Source: Candidatus Latescibacterota bacterium
Lineage (GTDB): Bacteria; Krumholzibacteriota; Krumholzibacteriia; WVZY01
DNA length: 39,665 nt
Direction: 5' to 3'
Assembly: GCA_020352495.1 (NCBI GenBank)
Contig: CP070677.1
Location: 1,862,959-1,902,623, forward strand
Shown in pieces: positions 837 to 5,390 of the stretch. Under the pieces are notes generated by a model. That model saw only the letters and a program-made list of their open reading frames with translations, ran no database searches and was not told where the DNA came from. Made by a program: the position numbers and the translations under genes. Position 1 is the stretch's first letter. The number at the start of each line of letters is the position of its first letter.

Positions 837-1421
837 TTAGTCAGAAGAGTACATCGCCTTGATCTTACCCCAACTGGAAGGCTCAGCCGGCACGATCGCC
901 GAGCACGGACACGAGCCATCTGGGTTAATGACGCCGGACTGGCCCGCGGCAAACAACAGATCCAGGTTACAGTCGACGACTTCGATTTCACCGGATGGAG
1001 CGGCCGGGTCCGGCCCGACCTCGTACACGCAGCACGGCGGTGTCGTACCCGATGCAAAGACCTGGACGGTCAAGACGTGAATTGGCGTGGTCAGATTCAA
1101 CCCGTAGCCAATCGAAACACCGGTTTGCGAGTTCCCGATCGTCACTCCAAACACCGCACCGTCAGCTAGATAACTAGCAGTTGTACACCCCGGAAGCTCC
1201 GCTTTGAACTGACACGCCGTCGCACACGTACCAGGATTGCTCGGATCATCGACGTGAACCAGGTAGATATTCAAGAGACCCGCCGTGTCATCGGTGACGG
1301 CGCAATCGTCTACGGTGGTCGGGTTCTGGACCCCGAAGACCCCGATGCGGCCCGGTAGCTGCGCAAACGCCACGCTTGCCGCAAGCACCAGGACAAGCGT
1401 CATTATCAGTACGGTTCTCAT
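837..1421 (-). CDS. Secreted beta-sandwich protein with C-terminal W-G-K-I-K motif (paralogue 1, subfamily A)
   Basis: 194 residues. ATG at 1421 follows GGGAGG at 5 bases. Residues 1-20 are a signal peptide (MRTVLIMTLVLVLAASVAFA), with cleavage likely before QLPG. The mature protein is rich in cysteine and glycine. It shares VTIGNSQTGVSIGYG, a CC-x-Y pair and PSGEIEVVDC with the protein at 3313-3861, so the two are close paralogues. The last residues, PAEPSSWGKIKAMYSSD, carry the C-terminal motif found in every paralogue of this array. There are no catalytic motifs. The fold is probably an extracellular or periplasmic beta-sandwich stabilised by disulfides. The function is unknown and I do not recognise a named family. 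The gene has its own terminator downstream (753-794). Confidence 0.85.
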   Translation of the reverse strand: MRTVLIMTLVLVLAASVAFAQLPGRIGVFGVQNPTTVDDCAVTDDTAGLLNIYLVHVDDPSNPGTCATACQFKAELPGCTTASYLADGAVFGVTIGNSQTGVSIGYGLNLTTPIHVLTVQVFASGTTPPCCVYEVGPDPAAPSGEIEVVDCNLDLLFAAGQSGVINPDGSCPCSAIVPAEPSSWGKIKAMYSSD

Positions 1422-1910
1422 ATCGCCTCCCTTGTGTTTTTGAGTAGAACCTCATGCTGCCGGAGCGGTCGCCGCGTCCGGCCAATCCGTTGCCATTAAA
1501 CCAACGCGACCGAGGACCTGCCTCAAACCACGCGCAACTCGCCGTTGCTATTCTAATATAGCTGCATCACCCCTTTCCGCGTGAGTTTTCTACGTTCCCG
1601 GAAACCCTGTCAAGCTCTTTTGTTACTTAATTTATTCAATTCTCTTCAAGTCCGATATGACAAAAAAACTGTCACAGACGCTTGTATCCGCAAAACATGT
1701 GCCGGTTGCATTTGCCTATTCGGGGGGCGCGTGGTGCCAGCCGTCCTGCAAAGAGCTTAACAGCTTGCCAAGAAATTGTTTATCTTTCCCCGTCGGATCT
1801 GCGGCCAAAAAACCACCCGAAGCCTCACAGGACCTCTCCTGGCCAAATGGGGTTCGGCCGGACACGCTCGCGGCGCGCCCGGCCAAACGCAAGCCGAATT
1901 CGTTTCGGCA
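1422..1910. other. 489-bp intergenic stretch between secreted paralogues
   Basis: No convincing gene. The part next to paralogue 1 (1540-1660) is AT-rich and must hold its promoter. TTGACA is present on the minus strand at 1615-1610, but no good -10 lies at 16-18 bases. An imperfect inverted repeat of TGACA and TGTCA flanks an A-run near 1655-1675. The part next to the stop of the gene at 1911 is GC-rich and has two weak hairpins (1828-1841 and 1856-1884) upstream, on the minus strand, of a T6 run (1812-1807). These may form a poor terminator. Confidence 0.5.
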
Positions 1911-2462
1911 CTAGTCGGTAAACATCGCCTTAATTCGGCTCCAGGTGGTCTCGTCCGTTGCCACGGTCGAACACACAAGTGCCGTCATGCCCGTCGCATC
2001 TATGAAATCGTAATCCGGGAAGTTGGTAGCACGCACCTTCCCCGTCATGGGATGCGGCCGGACCTGGACCGGGTCGTTTTCGACGGTGCACCCGTTGCAG
2101 TTCCACTGGAATTGGATTCTCGCCACGAGGAATCCGTTGACTCCATCCTGCGGAATCGCCCAGGCCTCCGAGATTCCGGTCGGGGTGGAACCCACCGTGA
2201 CCGGAGGGGTATCCAGGTCGGCGAGCCAGATCATACTCGCGGGATACACGATGGAATACTCCACACCCGAGATGAACTGGGCGAAATCCATGGCCACGAC
2301 ATACGCGATGTCCGTACCCCCTCCGACCGGGCAATCCTTGCTTCCCTGGGTGCAGTCCTCGTCGAAGTAGACGCGCACCGTTGGTGACGGCTGAGCATCC
2401 GCCGAGGCGGGAAGCAGCATCACGATCGCGAGGATCGCCGCAATTGCTAGCACTGCTCTCAT
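1911..2462 (-). CDS. Secreted beta-sandwich protein with C-terminal W-S-R-I-K motif (paralogue 2, subfamily B)
   Basis: 183 residues from ATG at 2462. I chose this start because AAGGGGGTGAC lies just before it and the signal peptide MRAVLAIAAILAIVMLLPASADA begins there; an in-frame start 18 codons further upstream would put a charged tail in front. The mature protein begins QPSPTVRVYFDEDC. It shares with the protein at 4096-4662 the order VYFD, GVE[YF]-[SA]-[IV]-[VA]-YP, PVT[VI]G-T--G[IL]S-AWA-PQ, WNC-GCT, HP--G, FP-Y and G[ML]T-L[VI]C. The C-terminus DETTWSRIKAMFTD carries the array motif. The GVE...YP strand followed by repeated hydrophobic strands is reminiscent of a cohesin-like beta-sandwich, but this is inference. 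Likely exported; function unknown. Confidence 0.85.
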   Translation of the reverse strand: MRAVLAIAAILAIVMLLPASADAQPSPTVRVYFDEDCTQGSKDCPVGGGTDIAYVVAMDFAQFISGVEYSIVYPASMIWLADLDTPPVTVGSTPTGISEAWAIPQDGVNGFLVARIQFQWNCNGCTVENDPVQVRPHPMTGKVRATNFPDYDFIDATGMTALVCSTVATDETTWSRIKAMFTD

Positions 2463-2726
2463 TCTGTCACCCCCTTCTTGCCGGGACTGAATCAGGTCAG
2501 ACGGGGGTGCTTGCAAGACCGAGACCGGATGTCGATCCGAACCGAGGAAAGACTCTCAGACGGGGTGCGTCGAGCGGGACAATGCCCGTGCAAACACGAG
2601 CATTTAGAAATTTCTGATATAACACGGTAAAACTATTTTCAATCAGTCGTTAGTAATTCCAGTGTCATATCTCTGATGCCGTGAGCGACGTGGAATCTCG
2701 ACGGGCGGGTCTCTGGCGGACACACC

Positions 2727-3062
2727 TTACCGCAAAAGAACTAGACGCTTGGCAAAATGCACGCGAGAGCAAAAAAAGCCGCTGGGCGAAACGGACTCCC
2801 CAGATATTGGGTTAGATTTGACCGCTTCACCCAGCGCGGCGGGTTTATCGAATCGACCAGTTAATTCCCTAAAGAGCGCTTTTACTTTACCCCAGGTAGT
2901 TTCCTCCGCCGGAATCGTCGCGCGGATGAGCAACGTCATGCCATAGGCGTCGTGGCGCTCGAAGTTCTTTCCCGAAATCCGTCCTGCACGGACTCGCCAA
3001 GAAGATCCGTGTGCCCCGACACGACAACTGCGTTGTCGAACGACTATGTAAACAAGTTCCAA
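2727..3062 (-). pseudogene. Decayed secreted paralogue: C-terminal remnant without signal peptide or stop at the usual place
   Basis: The minus frame ending at 2727 encodes RATIPAEETTWGKVKALF, nearly identical to the C-terminus of the protein at 4096-4662 (ICATIPAEETTWGKVKALYE). This segment is preceded by YGMTLLI, matching VGLTSLI there. Instead of stopping after ALF the frame continues for 48 codons through the terminator hairpin, as expected if one base was lost just before a TAG. Upstream only about 60 unrelated-looking residues are open and no signal peptide exists. An adjacent frame shows VVVSGHTDLLGESV, which may be the frame-shifted sequence before it. A good promoter (3124-3096) and terminator (2840-2771) still flank it. 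The unit therefore looks like an internally deleted, frameshifted copy, though transcription may persist. It is unlikely to make a working exported protein. Confidence 0.78.
2771..2840 (-). terminator. Intrinsic terminator of the decayed paralogue
   Basis: On the minus strand CGCTGGGTGAA (2836-2826) pairs with TTCGCCCAGCG (2790-2780; one G-U pair), and GGC then T7 follows (2777-2771). The hairpin lies inside the run-on reading frame of the pseudogene, which supports loss of the original stop. Confidence 0.85.
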
Positions 3063-3095
3063 AACACTGCCGTACCTTAGATGAGTTACGCCGAG

Positions 3096-3124
3096 ATGTT
3101 ACCATACGGACGCCACAAAGTCAA
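3096..3124 (-). promoter_or_regulatory. Promoter of the decayed paralogue
   Basis: TTGACT (3124-3119), a 17-base spacer and TAACAT (3101-3096), with a TGG just before the -10 (extended -10 type). A start near 3089 would leave only about 27 bases before the remaining open frame. The missing N-terminal coding part must therefore have been deleted from between promoter and remnant. Confidence 0.7.
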
Positions 3125-3243
3125 CTCGGTAGTTCCGCCTAATTGCGCTACACCGGCATCGCTATCGGTCGCGATCCGCCGCAACCGCACCGGCAATGTA
3201 CCCATGTTTAGTCAGCGGCACACAATCGGTCTTCGACAAAGAG

Positions 3244-3280
3244 AAAACGCCTGGCTGTTGACAAAACAGCCAGGCGTTTT
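3244..3280 (-). terminator. Intrinsic terminator of the secreted-protein gene at 3313-3861, symmetrical
   Basis: A perfect 16-bp stem (3244-3259 with 3265-3280) has a 5-base loop. The outer A4/T4 give a T-run on both strands, so it could act in both directions. It lies 33 bases past the stop at 3313. Confidence 0.92.
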
Positions 3281-3312
3281 TCGGTCCTTAACAGGTGTCA
3301 AAAATCGCTGGT

Positions 3313-3861
3313 CTAGTCAGTGTACAGCGATTTCACCTTACCCCAAGTGGAGTCCTCCGCCGGAACGTTGCAATCGCAGTTCGCGTTGGAGTTAATGATA
3401 CCGGTTCCACCGGTAGCATAGAGCAGAGCGTTGGAGCAGTCCACGACCTCGATTTCGCCCGATGGGGCGTTCGGGTCCGGAACCACCGTATAGTAACAGC
3501 ACGGACCGGTCAGACCCTGACAGAACAAGCTGATATCCAGCACGTTCGTCGGGGCGCCGACGCAGCCACCGTAACCAATCGACACGCCGGTCTGCGAGTT
3601 TCCGATTGTGACCGGGAATTTCTGCCCATCAGAGAGATACGTCCCCGCAAAGCAGGACGGAAGCGGTGCCGCGAACTGGCACGCCGTGGCTCCCCCGTGG
3701 AGCACGTGGACAAAGTGATATGTGCACAGACCCGGAACCACATCCAGAAGGTTGCAGTCTGTGCCCGCCACGTCTGCAAAGACACCAACGCTGCCCGCCT
3801 GGGCGAATGCCATCGTGGCGCTCAGCATTAGAGCCAACGTGAGTAACAGTGCCTTTTTCAT
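3313..3861 (-). CDS. Secreted beta-sandwich protein with C-terminal W-G-K-V-K motif (paralogue 3, subfamily A)
   Basis: 182 residues. ATG at 3861 lies 5 bases after AAAGGAG; a GTG two codons earlier overlaps that Shine-Dalgarno and is unlikely to be used. The signal peptide is MKKALLLTLALMLSATMAFA, followed by QAGSVGVFAD. It shares PVTIGNSQTGVSIGYG, PCCYYTVVPDP and APSGEIEVVDCSN with the protein at 837-1421. About ten cysteines in the mature chain suggest disulfides and an extracytoplasmic site. It ends VPAEDSTWGKVKSLYTD, the array motif. It has its own leader and terminator, so it is probably a single-gene transcript. A TTGACA at 3939-3934 upstream has only a weak -10. Function unknown. Confidence 0.85.
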   Translation of the reverse strand: MKKALLLTLALMLSATMAFAQAGSVGVFADVAGTDCNLLDVVPGLCTYHFVHVLHGGATACQFAAPLPSCFAGTYLSDGQKFPVTIGNSQTGVSIGYGGCVGAPTNVLDISLFCQGLTGPCCYYTVVPDPNAPSGEIEVVDCSNALLYATGGTGIINSNANCDCNVPAEDSTWGKVKSLYTD

Positions 3862-4027
3862 TCTCACTCCTTTGCGCGAAGATTAACGAACACGACCTTC
3901 GACAAAGATTCACAAATGCAGCTCAGTAAGAGCGGTGTCAACCGTTGGTTGCCGGTCGCGATCCGCTCATCTCGGAAAGGCAATACTCGGAACGAAGTTC
4001 CTTGCTCACCCCCTAACGCAGCGTTTG

Positions 4028-4081
4028 CTGGATGAACCGCCTCTGGGCTGATGGATGAACCCTACTAGGGGTTCATCCAGC
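4028..4081. repeat. Three copies of GGATGAACC / GGTTCATCC forming alternative hairpins after the gene at 4096
   Basis: GCTGGATGAACC (4028-4039) and GGATGAACCC (4053-4062) can each pair with the same right arm, GGTTCATCCAGC (4070-4081) or GGGTTCATCC (4069-4078). It begins 15 bases past the stop at 4096. There is no T-run on the minus strand, so it is not a standard intrinsic terminator. It may protect the 3' end or fold into two competing stems. Confidence 0.6.
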
Positions 4082-4095
4082 CGCACGCTTCCTTC

Positions 4096-4662
4096 TTACT
4101 CGTACAAGGCTTTGACCTTACCCCAGGTCGTCTCCTCCGCCGGGATCGTCGCGCAAATGAGCGACGTCAGTCCGACAGCGGGATGATTGACGTACCCAGG
4201 AAAGTCCACCCACTCGATCACACCGGAAACGGGGTGTACGACAACGGGCATCGGAATGTCCGTCGATGTACAACCATCGCAGTTCCAGAAGAAATCCACA
4301 CCACAGATGTAGACGGCTGAGAACCCGTTTTGGGGATTAGCCCATGCCATCGACAGACCTGACGCGGTATTTCCGATCGTCACCGGCTGGGTATCGAAAT
4401 CAGCAACGTGAACGATCTCGGGCGGGTACGCCACGGCAAACTCCACGCCCACCACAAACATGTTCGCGTTGGAGAGCGCTATGTAAAGCTTGCCAGGAAA
4501 ACCCGGTCCCACACCTGGACATGACTGCCCCGGAGGTGGAATCAAAGCCTCGGTCGTATACGTCTGGTCAAAGTAGACCGCAATGTACGGAGTCGTCTGC
4601 GCACTAACGGTAACTGCACTCAGCACCATAAGTACGAAGACAATCAGTGTTGCAGTTCTCAT
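4096..4662 (-). CDS. Secreted beta-sandwich protein with C-terminal W-G-K-V-K motif (paralogue 4, subfamily B)
   Basis: 188 residues from ATG at 4662, 6 bases after GAGGAG; an in-frame TTG two codons earlier is less likely. The signal peptide is MRTATLIVFVLMVLSAVTVSA, then QTTPYIAVYFDQ. Conserved with the protein at 1911-2462: VVGVEFAVAYP, PVTIGNTASGLSMAWANPQ, FFWNCDGC, VVHPVSGVIEWVDFPGY and VGLTSLICATIP. The end is EETTWGKVKALYE. The shared VTIGN--x-G-S core also links this subfamily to subfamily A, so all four intact proteins are probably homologous. The gene starts 89 bases after the EF-hand protein gene at 4752-5390 with no terminator between them, so the two may be co-transcribed. This would put an EF-hand/dockerin-like and a cohesin-like protein in one operon (inference). 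Confidence 0.85.
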   Translation of the reverse strand: MRTATLIVFVLMVLSAVTVSAQTTPYIAVYFDQTYTTEALIPPPGQSCPGVGPGFPGKLYIALSNANMFVVGVEFAVAYPPEIVHVADFDTQPVTIGNTASGLSMAWANPQNGFSAVYICGVDFFWNCDGCTSTDIPMPVVVHPVSGVIEWVDFPGYVNHPAVGLTSLICATIPAEETTWGKVKALYE

Positions 4663-4751
4663 CTTCAACTCCTCTTGTCTGCTGTAGTACCTAGAGACGC
4701 AAACCCATTTAGGAGTCCGATGCTAACCCAAGGCTTCGCACTGAGATTCGA

Positions 4752-5390
4752 CTATTGACACTCGTGTCCCGGAGGACCGAAGTGGAACGCGAATCTCGCA
4801 AGGTCCTGAAGGTTGACGAGCCCGCTGCAGTCGAAGTCACAGCACGTGTCATACGGCTGCGGCGGATAACACGTCGCAAAAATCGACAAGTCAACCAGTG
4901 TGACCGCCAGGTCACCGTCAAGATCCGGGGTGCGAACGTGAATGTCCCAACAGTACGCAGGACAACCCGGTCCCGGAGCCGGCCCCAAGACAAAGCCCTG
5001 AACGACCATCGAGAGCCCATCGGCGCAACCGCCAGCGGCCAGCGTGGCGTCGCCCATGGTCGTGGCACCCGAGTCGTTCGTCGCAGAATCCGCCGCTGTT
5101 GACGCAGAACCTGCGCAAAGCGCCAGATTGTTGACAGGATCGCAATCGATTAGCCAGAAATCGCTACCAGGGATATCGGGAATCGGCTGGCCTATGAGGT
5201 CATTGATGACCATTGACCACGAAAACCCAGCCTGATTGAACGTCTCCGTGTCACCCTGCGGACAGGCGAAATAGCACTCGGGCTCTACGCCATTGTACAC
5301 AACAGGCGAGTTACACGGATCGATGATCCCCGCACTGGCGATTCCGGCTACCAAAAGTAGTGAGGCTGCAAAGAGTACAACCTTAGACAT
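4752..5390 (-). CDS. Secreted protein with C-terminal EF-hand / dockerin-like pair
   Basis: 212 residues. GGAGGTG lies 6 bases before ATG 5390. The signal peptide is MSKVVLFAASLLLVAGIASA. The N-terminal two thirds hold many cysteines (CNSPVVYNGVEPECYFACPQGD and others) in a probable beta-rich domain. Near residues 157-173 is DLDGDLAVTLVDLSIFA, and near 192-208 is DFDCSGLVNLQDLARFAF. Both fit the Ca-binding loop plus helix of dockerin or EF-hand repeats (D-x-D-G-D-x-x-V-x-x-x-D-L). The second loop has C at the usual D/N place. In known systems dockerins bind cohesin domains and anchor secreted proteins to a scaffold. This protein lacks the array C-terminal motif and ends GPPGHECQ. A good promoter lies upstream (5551-5522). 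No enzyme domain is recognised. Confidence 0.82.
   Translation of the reverse strand: MSKVVLFAASLLLVAGIASAGIIDPCNSPVVYNGVEPECYFACPQGDTETFNQAGFSWSMVINDLIGQPIPDIPGSDFWLIDCDPVNNLALCAGSASTAADSATNDSGATTMGDATLAAGGCADGLSMVVQGFVLGPAPGPGCPAYCWDIHVRTPDLDGDLAVTLVDLSIFATCYPPQPYDTCCDFDCSGLVNLQDLARFAFHFGPPGHECQ

Follow-up and report, generated by a model that had tools for sequence, protein, structure and literature searches.

A short C-terminal tail on diverse secreted proteins of Krumholzibacteriota and Eisenbacteria: very likely a sorting signal, perhaps one served by type IX secretion

C-terminal signals of the type IX secretion system (T9SS) come in more than one kind, and its type A and type B CTDs are served by different shuttles (PMC12618676). 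The type A CTD (PF18962/TIGR04183), which spans about 100 residues and folds as an Ig-like beta domain (PMC12618676), is found at the C-terminus of diverse Sec-exported cargo, on dozens of proteins per genome, in genomes that encode SprA and PorV. In the known T9SS, loops of PorV bind the CTD within the pore of SprA (PMC10994853). The type B CTD (TIGR04131), of 150-235 residues, is read by PorP/SprF-like shuttles, and its genes usually adjoin the gene of their shuttle. Reviews describe the T9SS as confined to Bacteroidetes (PMC7463736, PMC7906972). Two further systems, PEP-CTERM/exosortase and GlyGly-CTERM/rhombosortase, rest on a short C-terminal homology shared by unrelated secreted proteins, and both were found through genome-wide recurrence (PMC1569441, PMC3237569); their signals have a transmembrane stretch and a basic end, on which an intramembrane enzyme acts.

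The tail that we describe here was also found through its recurrence in a genome. It resembles the type A CTD in its position, in the diversity and number of its cargo and in the presence of SprA and PorV, and the two swap on homologous cores; however, it is only about 12-17 residues long, at the extreme C-terminus, and helical in the model. It has no sequence likeness to the type B CTD, and tail genes, unlike type B genes, mostly do not adjoin a shuttle gene. Unlike PEP-CTERM and GlyGly-CTERM, it has no membrane-spanning helix.

The window, by which we mean the whole stretch of 39,665 nucleotides that was analysed (G000:C1:1862959-1902623), lies within a 4.3-Mb single-contig Krumholzibacteriota genome. 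Its four intact tail ORFs and one remnant are all on the minus strand:

837..1421, minus strand: cohesin-like secreted protein, subgroup A, with signal peptide, beta-sandwich and tail PAEPSSWGKIKAMYSSD
849..872 (= G000:C1:1863807-1863830), minus strand: its tail motif WGKIKAMY, then SSD and stop (tail-pattern match)
1911..2462, minus strand: cohesin-like secreted protein, subgroup B, tail TDETTWSRIKAMFTD (ORF)
1920..1943, minus strand: its tail motif WSRIKAMF, then TD and stop (tail-pattern match)
2727..3062, minus strand: ORF of a gene remnant, a 31-residue scrap of a subgroup-B C-terminus, tail ATIPAEETTWGKVKALF
2871..2894, minus strand: tail motif WGKVKALF in the remnant (seen in the sequence)
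3313..3867, minus strand: cohesin-like secreted protein, subgroup A, tail PAEDSTWGKVKSLYTD (ORF and modelled structure)
3322..3345, minus strand: its tail motif WGKVKSLY, then TD and stop (tail-pattern match)
4096..4668, minus strand: cohesin-like secreted protein, subgroup B, tail PAEETTWGKVKALYE (ORF)
4102..4125, minus strand: its tail motif WGKVKALY, then E and stop (tail-pattern match)

The ORF at 1911 is open to 2516 (TTG), and the ATG at 2462 is its likely start. The remnant resembles the C-terminus of the 4096 protein, but its stop is lost and the frame reads on. A sequence-only reading of this DNA had noticed tails on four intact proteins and one remnant, which we confirm; the intact ones stop 1-3 residues past the motif. 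The same reading placed an acidic E/D pair before every tail, which does not hold for the 837 protein (E-P there). It also regarded the proteins as one paralogous family, and indeed all four are homologous, although they fall into two distantly related subgroups (837 with 3313, and 1911 with 4096).

According to the AlphaFold model and structural comparison, the window family has a confidently modelled beta-sandwich that is closest to cohesin modules. In the 3313 protein the model places a signal helix at residues 2-22, the sandwich at 26-158 and the tail helix at 174-182, and the tail is modelled as a separate short helix of low confidence appended outside the sandwich rather than as part of the fold core (pLDDT about 60, against about 97 for the sandwich that precedes it). 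The minus-strand gene at 4752-5390 of the window encodes a secreted, tail-less protein in which a C-terminal dockerin-like calcium-loop repeat can be seen by eye, with no match in Pfam; given its place beside genes whose products are modelled with a cohesin-like fold, a cohesin-dockerin pairing is possible. Two large T9SS-CTD proteins, with open frames of 1327 and 1271 aa, are encoded within 8 kb outside the window start (G000:C1:1855138-1855368 and 1858959-1859189, minus strand).

An alignment consensus of [TP]-V-P-V-E-[ED]-S-[TS]-W-[GS]-x-[IV]-K-[AS]-[LM]-[YF]-R, then stop, emerges from 172 tail ORFs; more generally, the last position is R/x. Conservation extends upstream of the search pattern, with E at -4 in 116/172 ORFs and T/S at -1 in 157/172, both positions that lay outside that pattern. 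When the genome was searched with a degenerate (IUPAC) DNA pattern of the tail, 34 matches were found, against none for the reversed pattern that served as control, which puts the tail far above chance, and at least seven further tail variants exist in this genome besides the strict-pattern matches. The expectation that the motif is always terminal is borne out by 32 of the 34 copies, in which the stop follows 1-3 residues past the motif; the two exceptions are the window remnant and one protein with a 10-residue extension. In a few cohesin-like proteins (L039, L341) a conserved extension of 10 residues (APExxKAxRx) comes after the tail. An apparent fusion of nadD to a tail protein (L335, G000:C1:1476800-1479000) turned out to be an artefact of an N run that joins two genes in frame. 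The motif occurs mid-protein too. Among the 119 matches listed from a scan of public genomes 62 are terminal, and 45 of the 57 non-terminal ones are in IF-2-like proteins; we judge its presence in the translation initiation factor IF-2 from other bacterial phyla to be a separate, unrelated chance resemblance, which leaves the interpretation of the tail standing.

Otherwise unrelated proteins carry the tail. With signal peptide and tail removed beforehand, 164 tail proteins from the fetched loci fall into 59 sequence clusters (E<1e-3), 11 of which have members in this genome; the motif itself defines this sample, and the assemblies are masked and partly fragmentary. Hence, the tail extends well beyond one domain family. 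The Pfam and NCBIfam domains on the carriers are of typically extracellular types: beta-helix, lamin-tail (LTD), CHRD, DUF642, NHL, cohesin, GEVED and Cleaved_Adhesin, along with the NCBIfam choice-of-anchor C and J. The name choice-of-anchor refers to the differing C-terminal anchoring signals of the members, and the families to which some tail proteins belong (TIGR04362, NF038128) describe cargo domains, not the signal. One carrier is related to a diheme protein family, and a few are lipoproteins (L040, L087, L100). The predicted signal peptides are also found, with a signal-peptide-like N-terminus in 132/152 tail proteins against 43/100 background genes (p=2e-13), by a lenient hydrophobicity rule that 43% of background genes pass as well; in most cases inspected, the carriers failing this rule are truncated or masked.

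None of the sorting-signal models in Pfam and NCBIfam covers the tail, which agrees with the earlier impression that no named system matches it. It is neither LPXTG nor PEP-CTERM, having no membrane-spanning hydrophobic stretch in its 12-17 residues with E-E-S-T-W-G-x-I-K, and it lacks the beta-domain look of T9SS signals: it is modelled as a helix, and no tail protein scanned matches the type A CTD models. An outer-membrane beta-signal was considered as well, and the spacing of G and aromatic residues in the tail does not seem to fit it. In our literature search the tail sequences searched were not found in any paper, nor was a paper found that links Krumholzibacteriota or Eisenbacteria to the T9SS.

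The strict pattern is present in 63/80 Krumholzibacteriota genomes, with one control match overall. A looser pattern has 11-59 matches in most Eisenbacteria-type genomes tested and exactly one in nearly all genomes tested of Bacteroidota, Rhodothermia, Ignavibacteria and Neomarinimicrobiota, while its control has no match in any of 30 genomes. Nearly all terminal matches listed from public genomes belong to these same groups, that is to Krumholzibacteriota, Eisenbacteria, and Bacteroidota with the relatives just named. In Bacteroidota, Rhodothermia and Ignavibacteria there is at most one tail protein per genome, a small secreted FN3-like protein of about 135 aa ending in RTWGSIKAMFR (L138:5692-6093, L162:3943-4344, L248-L276). 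Its FN3 domain varies widely, but the last 11 residues, RRTWGSIKAMFR, are nearly invariant, and its model too has a short C-terminal helix. A PDB search with this protein and with the tail profile returned no T9SS subunit or other relevant match, and in Bacteroidota its gene has only housekeeping neighbours (Maf, SpoIID) and no partner. By the strict pattern the gene occurs in 53 of 297 Bacteroidota genomes drawn. All 53 have SprA, and the gene is present in 0/68 Bacteroidota without SprA (Fisher p=3e-7, a value that ignores ancestry; the SprA-less Bacteroidota may be one clade). A further 176 Bacteroidota genomes have SprA and no strict-pattern match.

Translocon-like genes, for which the sequence-only reading had advised a search, do co-occur with the tail. 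The SprA of this genome scores 571.6 bits against TIGR04189 (cut-off 200; 4e-171). The full-length SprA/Sov gene, at G000:C1:1464951-1466180 (L194:11820-18017), adjoins LptF/G-like and rimP-nusA-infB genes. SprA is found in 77/78 Krumholzibacteriota genomes, in 66 by Pfam and in 11 of the remaining 12 by protein search, and the sole genome without it is 61% complete; the seeming lack of SprA in some tail-bearing genomes was an artefact of Pfam-model sensitivity. SprA is present in all Eisenbacteria-type genomes tested and PorV in 36/36 FCB genomes tested. SprA was present in each genome with multiple tails that we examined, and PorV in each of those tested. Nearly all Krumholzibacteriota and Eisenbacteria have SprA, PorV and T9SS CTDs. 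This genome has 107 PF18962 CTDs, although some such counts may be inflated, since the CTD and FlgD Ig-like families of Pfam resemble each other.

In our opinion, the strongest evidence for a T9SS connection is the interchange of tail and CTD on homologous proteins. At the C-terminus, members of the window family have the tail or a type-A-like T9SS CTD, never both; in two of them (L338 and L345) the CTD also matches PF18962, and a few members end in neither, some being frameshifted or masked. Among 250 tail ORFs (from overlapping loci, with duplicates counted) none has a CTD, and for 110 a core homologue ends in one, in several families including beta-helix proteins. One export route is the simplest explanation for this exchange of tail and CTD within families of cargo.

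We are highly confident that the tail is a real and previously undescribed C-terminal sorting signal. The notion of a sorting, anchoring or docking signal behind a signal peptide is well supported by its terminal position, its presence on many unrelated proteins and its place outside the modelled fold. With moderate confidence only, and on the grounds of shared cargo and co-occurrence, we favour the tail as a short alternative to the T9SS CTD that is read by SprA/PorV. Sec would carry the proteins over the inner membrane by means of their signal peptides, as the heuristic evidence for these suggests. In the periplasm the tail, a putative short amphipathic helix on a flexible linker, would be recognized, and the protein would then be handed to the outer membrane or the cell surface. 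The likeliest reader would be the SprA/PorV outer-membrane export machinery of the T9SS, or a PorV-like shuttle. The tail may thereby be a third, minimal T9SS signal besides the type A and type B CTDs, and it is conceivable that such a signal would have its own or a shared shuttle.

Several points speak against reading by SprA/PorV. The co-occurrence of tail and SprA is confounded by shared ancestry, SprA being nearly universal in these phyla. Known CTDs are beta domains of 100-235 residues, against a tail of a dozen residues that is helical in the model. Lipoproteins are unusual as T9SS cargo. Bacteroidota have at most one tail protein per genome, and many of their SprA-bearing genomes have no strict match at all. 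Finally, no recurrent or dedicated receptor gene was found among the neighbours of tail genes in Eisenbacteria and Krumholzibacteriota loci, save PorV-family genes near the tail lipoproteins of two related Eisenbacteria (L087:4393-5544, L100:1156-2064).

Some of these points would suit a true sorting signal of a separate post-Sec machinery that exists alongside the T9SS and has a receptor or transpeptidase of its own. The tail, short and helical, differs from both known CTD types, it can sit on lipoproteins, and the many coexisting T9SS-CTD proteins mean that a CTD route is already in the cell. However, no candidate genes were found beside the tail genes, and the swap of tail and CTD on the same cargo families argues for a common route; we therefore consider a separate machinery rather unlikely. 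About as improbable, in our estimate, is the related idea of a novel pathway for export or surface display that has a receptor of its own and takes the tail as its signal; dozens of proteins per genome would use it in Krumholzibacteriota and Eisenbacteria, and in Bacteroidota and relatives the single conserved FN3-like protein would do so, as the ancestral client or a component of the machinery.

The tail could also be an anchor or docking peptide with no role in translocation, an amphipathic W..I..LY helix that tethers proteins to an envelope partner or a membrane face. Its spacing (W1, I/V4 and L7/Y8 on one face, K5 on the opposite one) and the helix prediction fit this, the near-invariance of the tail in the small FN3-like protein of Bacteroidota hints at a specific partner, and the cohesin-like fold of the window proteins makes assembly into larger complexes plausible. 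Yet lipoproteins, which are already anchored, carry the tail too, and the fact that tail and T9SS CTD exclude each other points to a common role in export, so that we hold this to be a good deal less probable than export by SprA/PorV. C-termini are what PDZ proteases like DegS and Prc recognize, and the position of the tail would agree with a tag by which a periplasmic protease or quality-control factor knows its targets; but the tail ends in charged residues, its conserved extent is 16 residues, and it occurs not sporadically but on dozens of secreted proteins that are well conserved, which makes such a tag very unlikely. We give practically no credence to the motif being just part of the structure of a single paralogous domain family: within the window there is indeed one family only, but the 59 clusters, the modelled position outside the fold and the relatives that end in a CTD and lack the tail all contradict it.

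If the tail is the sorting signal that we believe it to be, it matters, as C-terminal sorting signals define whole secretomes. Display and secretion methods would gain a compact tool in an export tag of a dozen residues. A new signal would make it possible to recognize which proteins two poorly known phyla export, and it would test whether the T9SS works beyond Bacteroidetes and takes a minimal peptide in place of CTDs of 100-235 residues.
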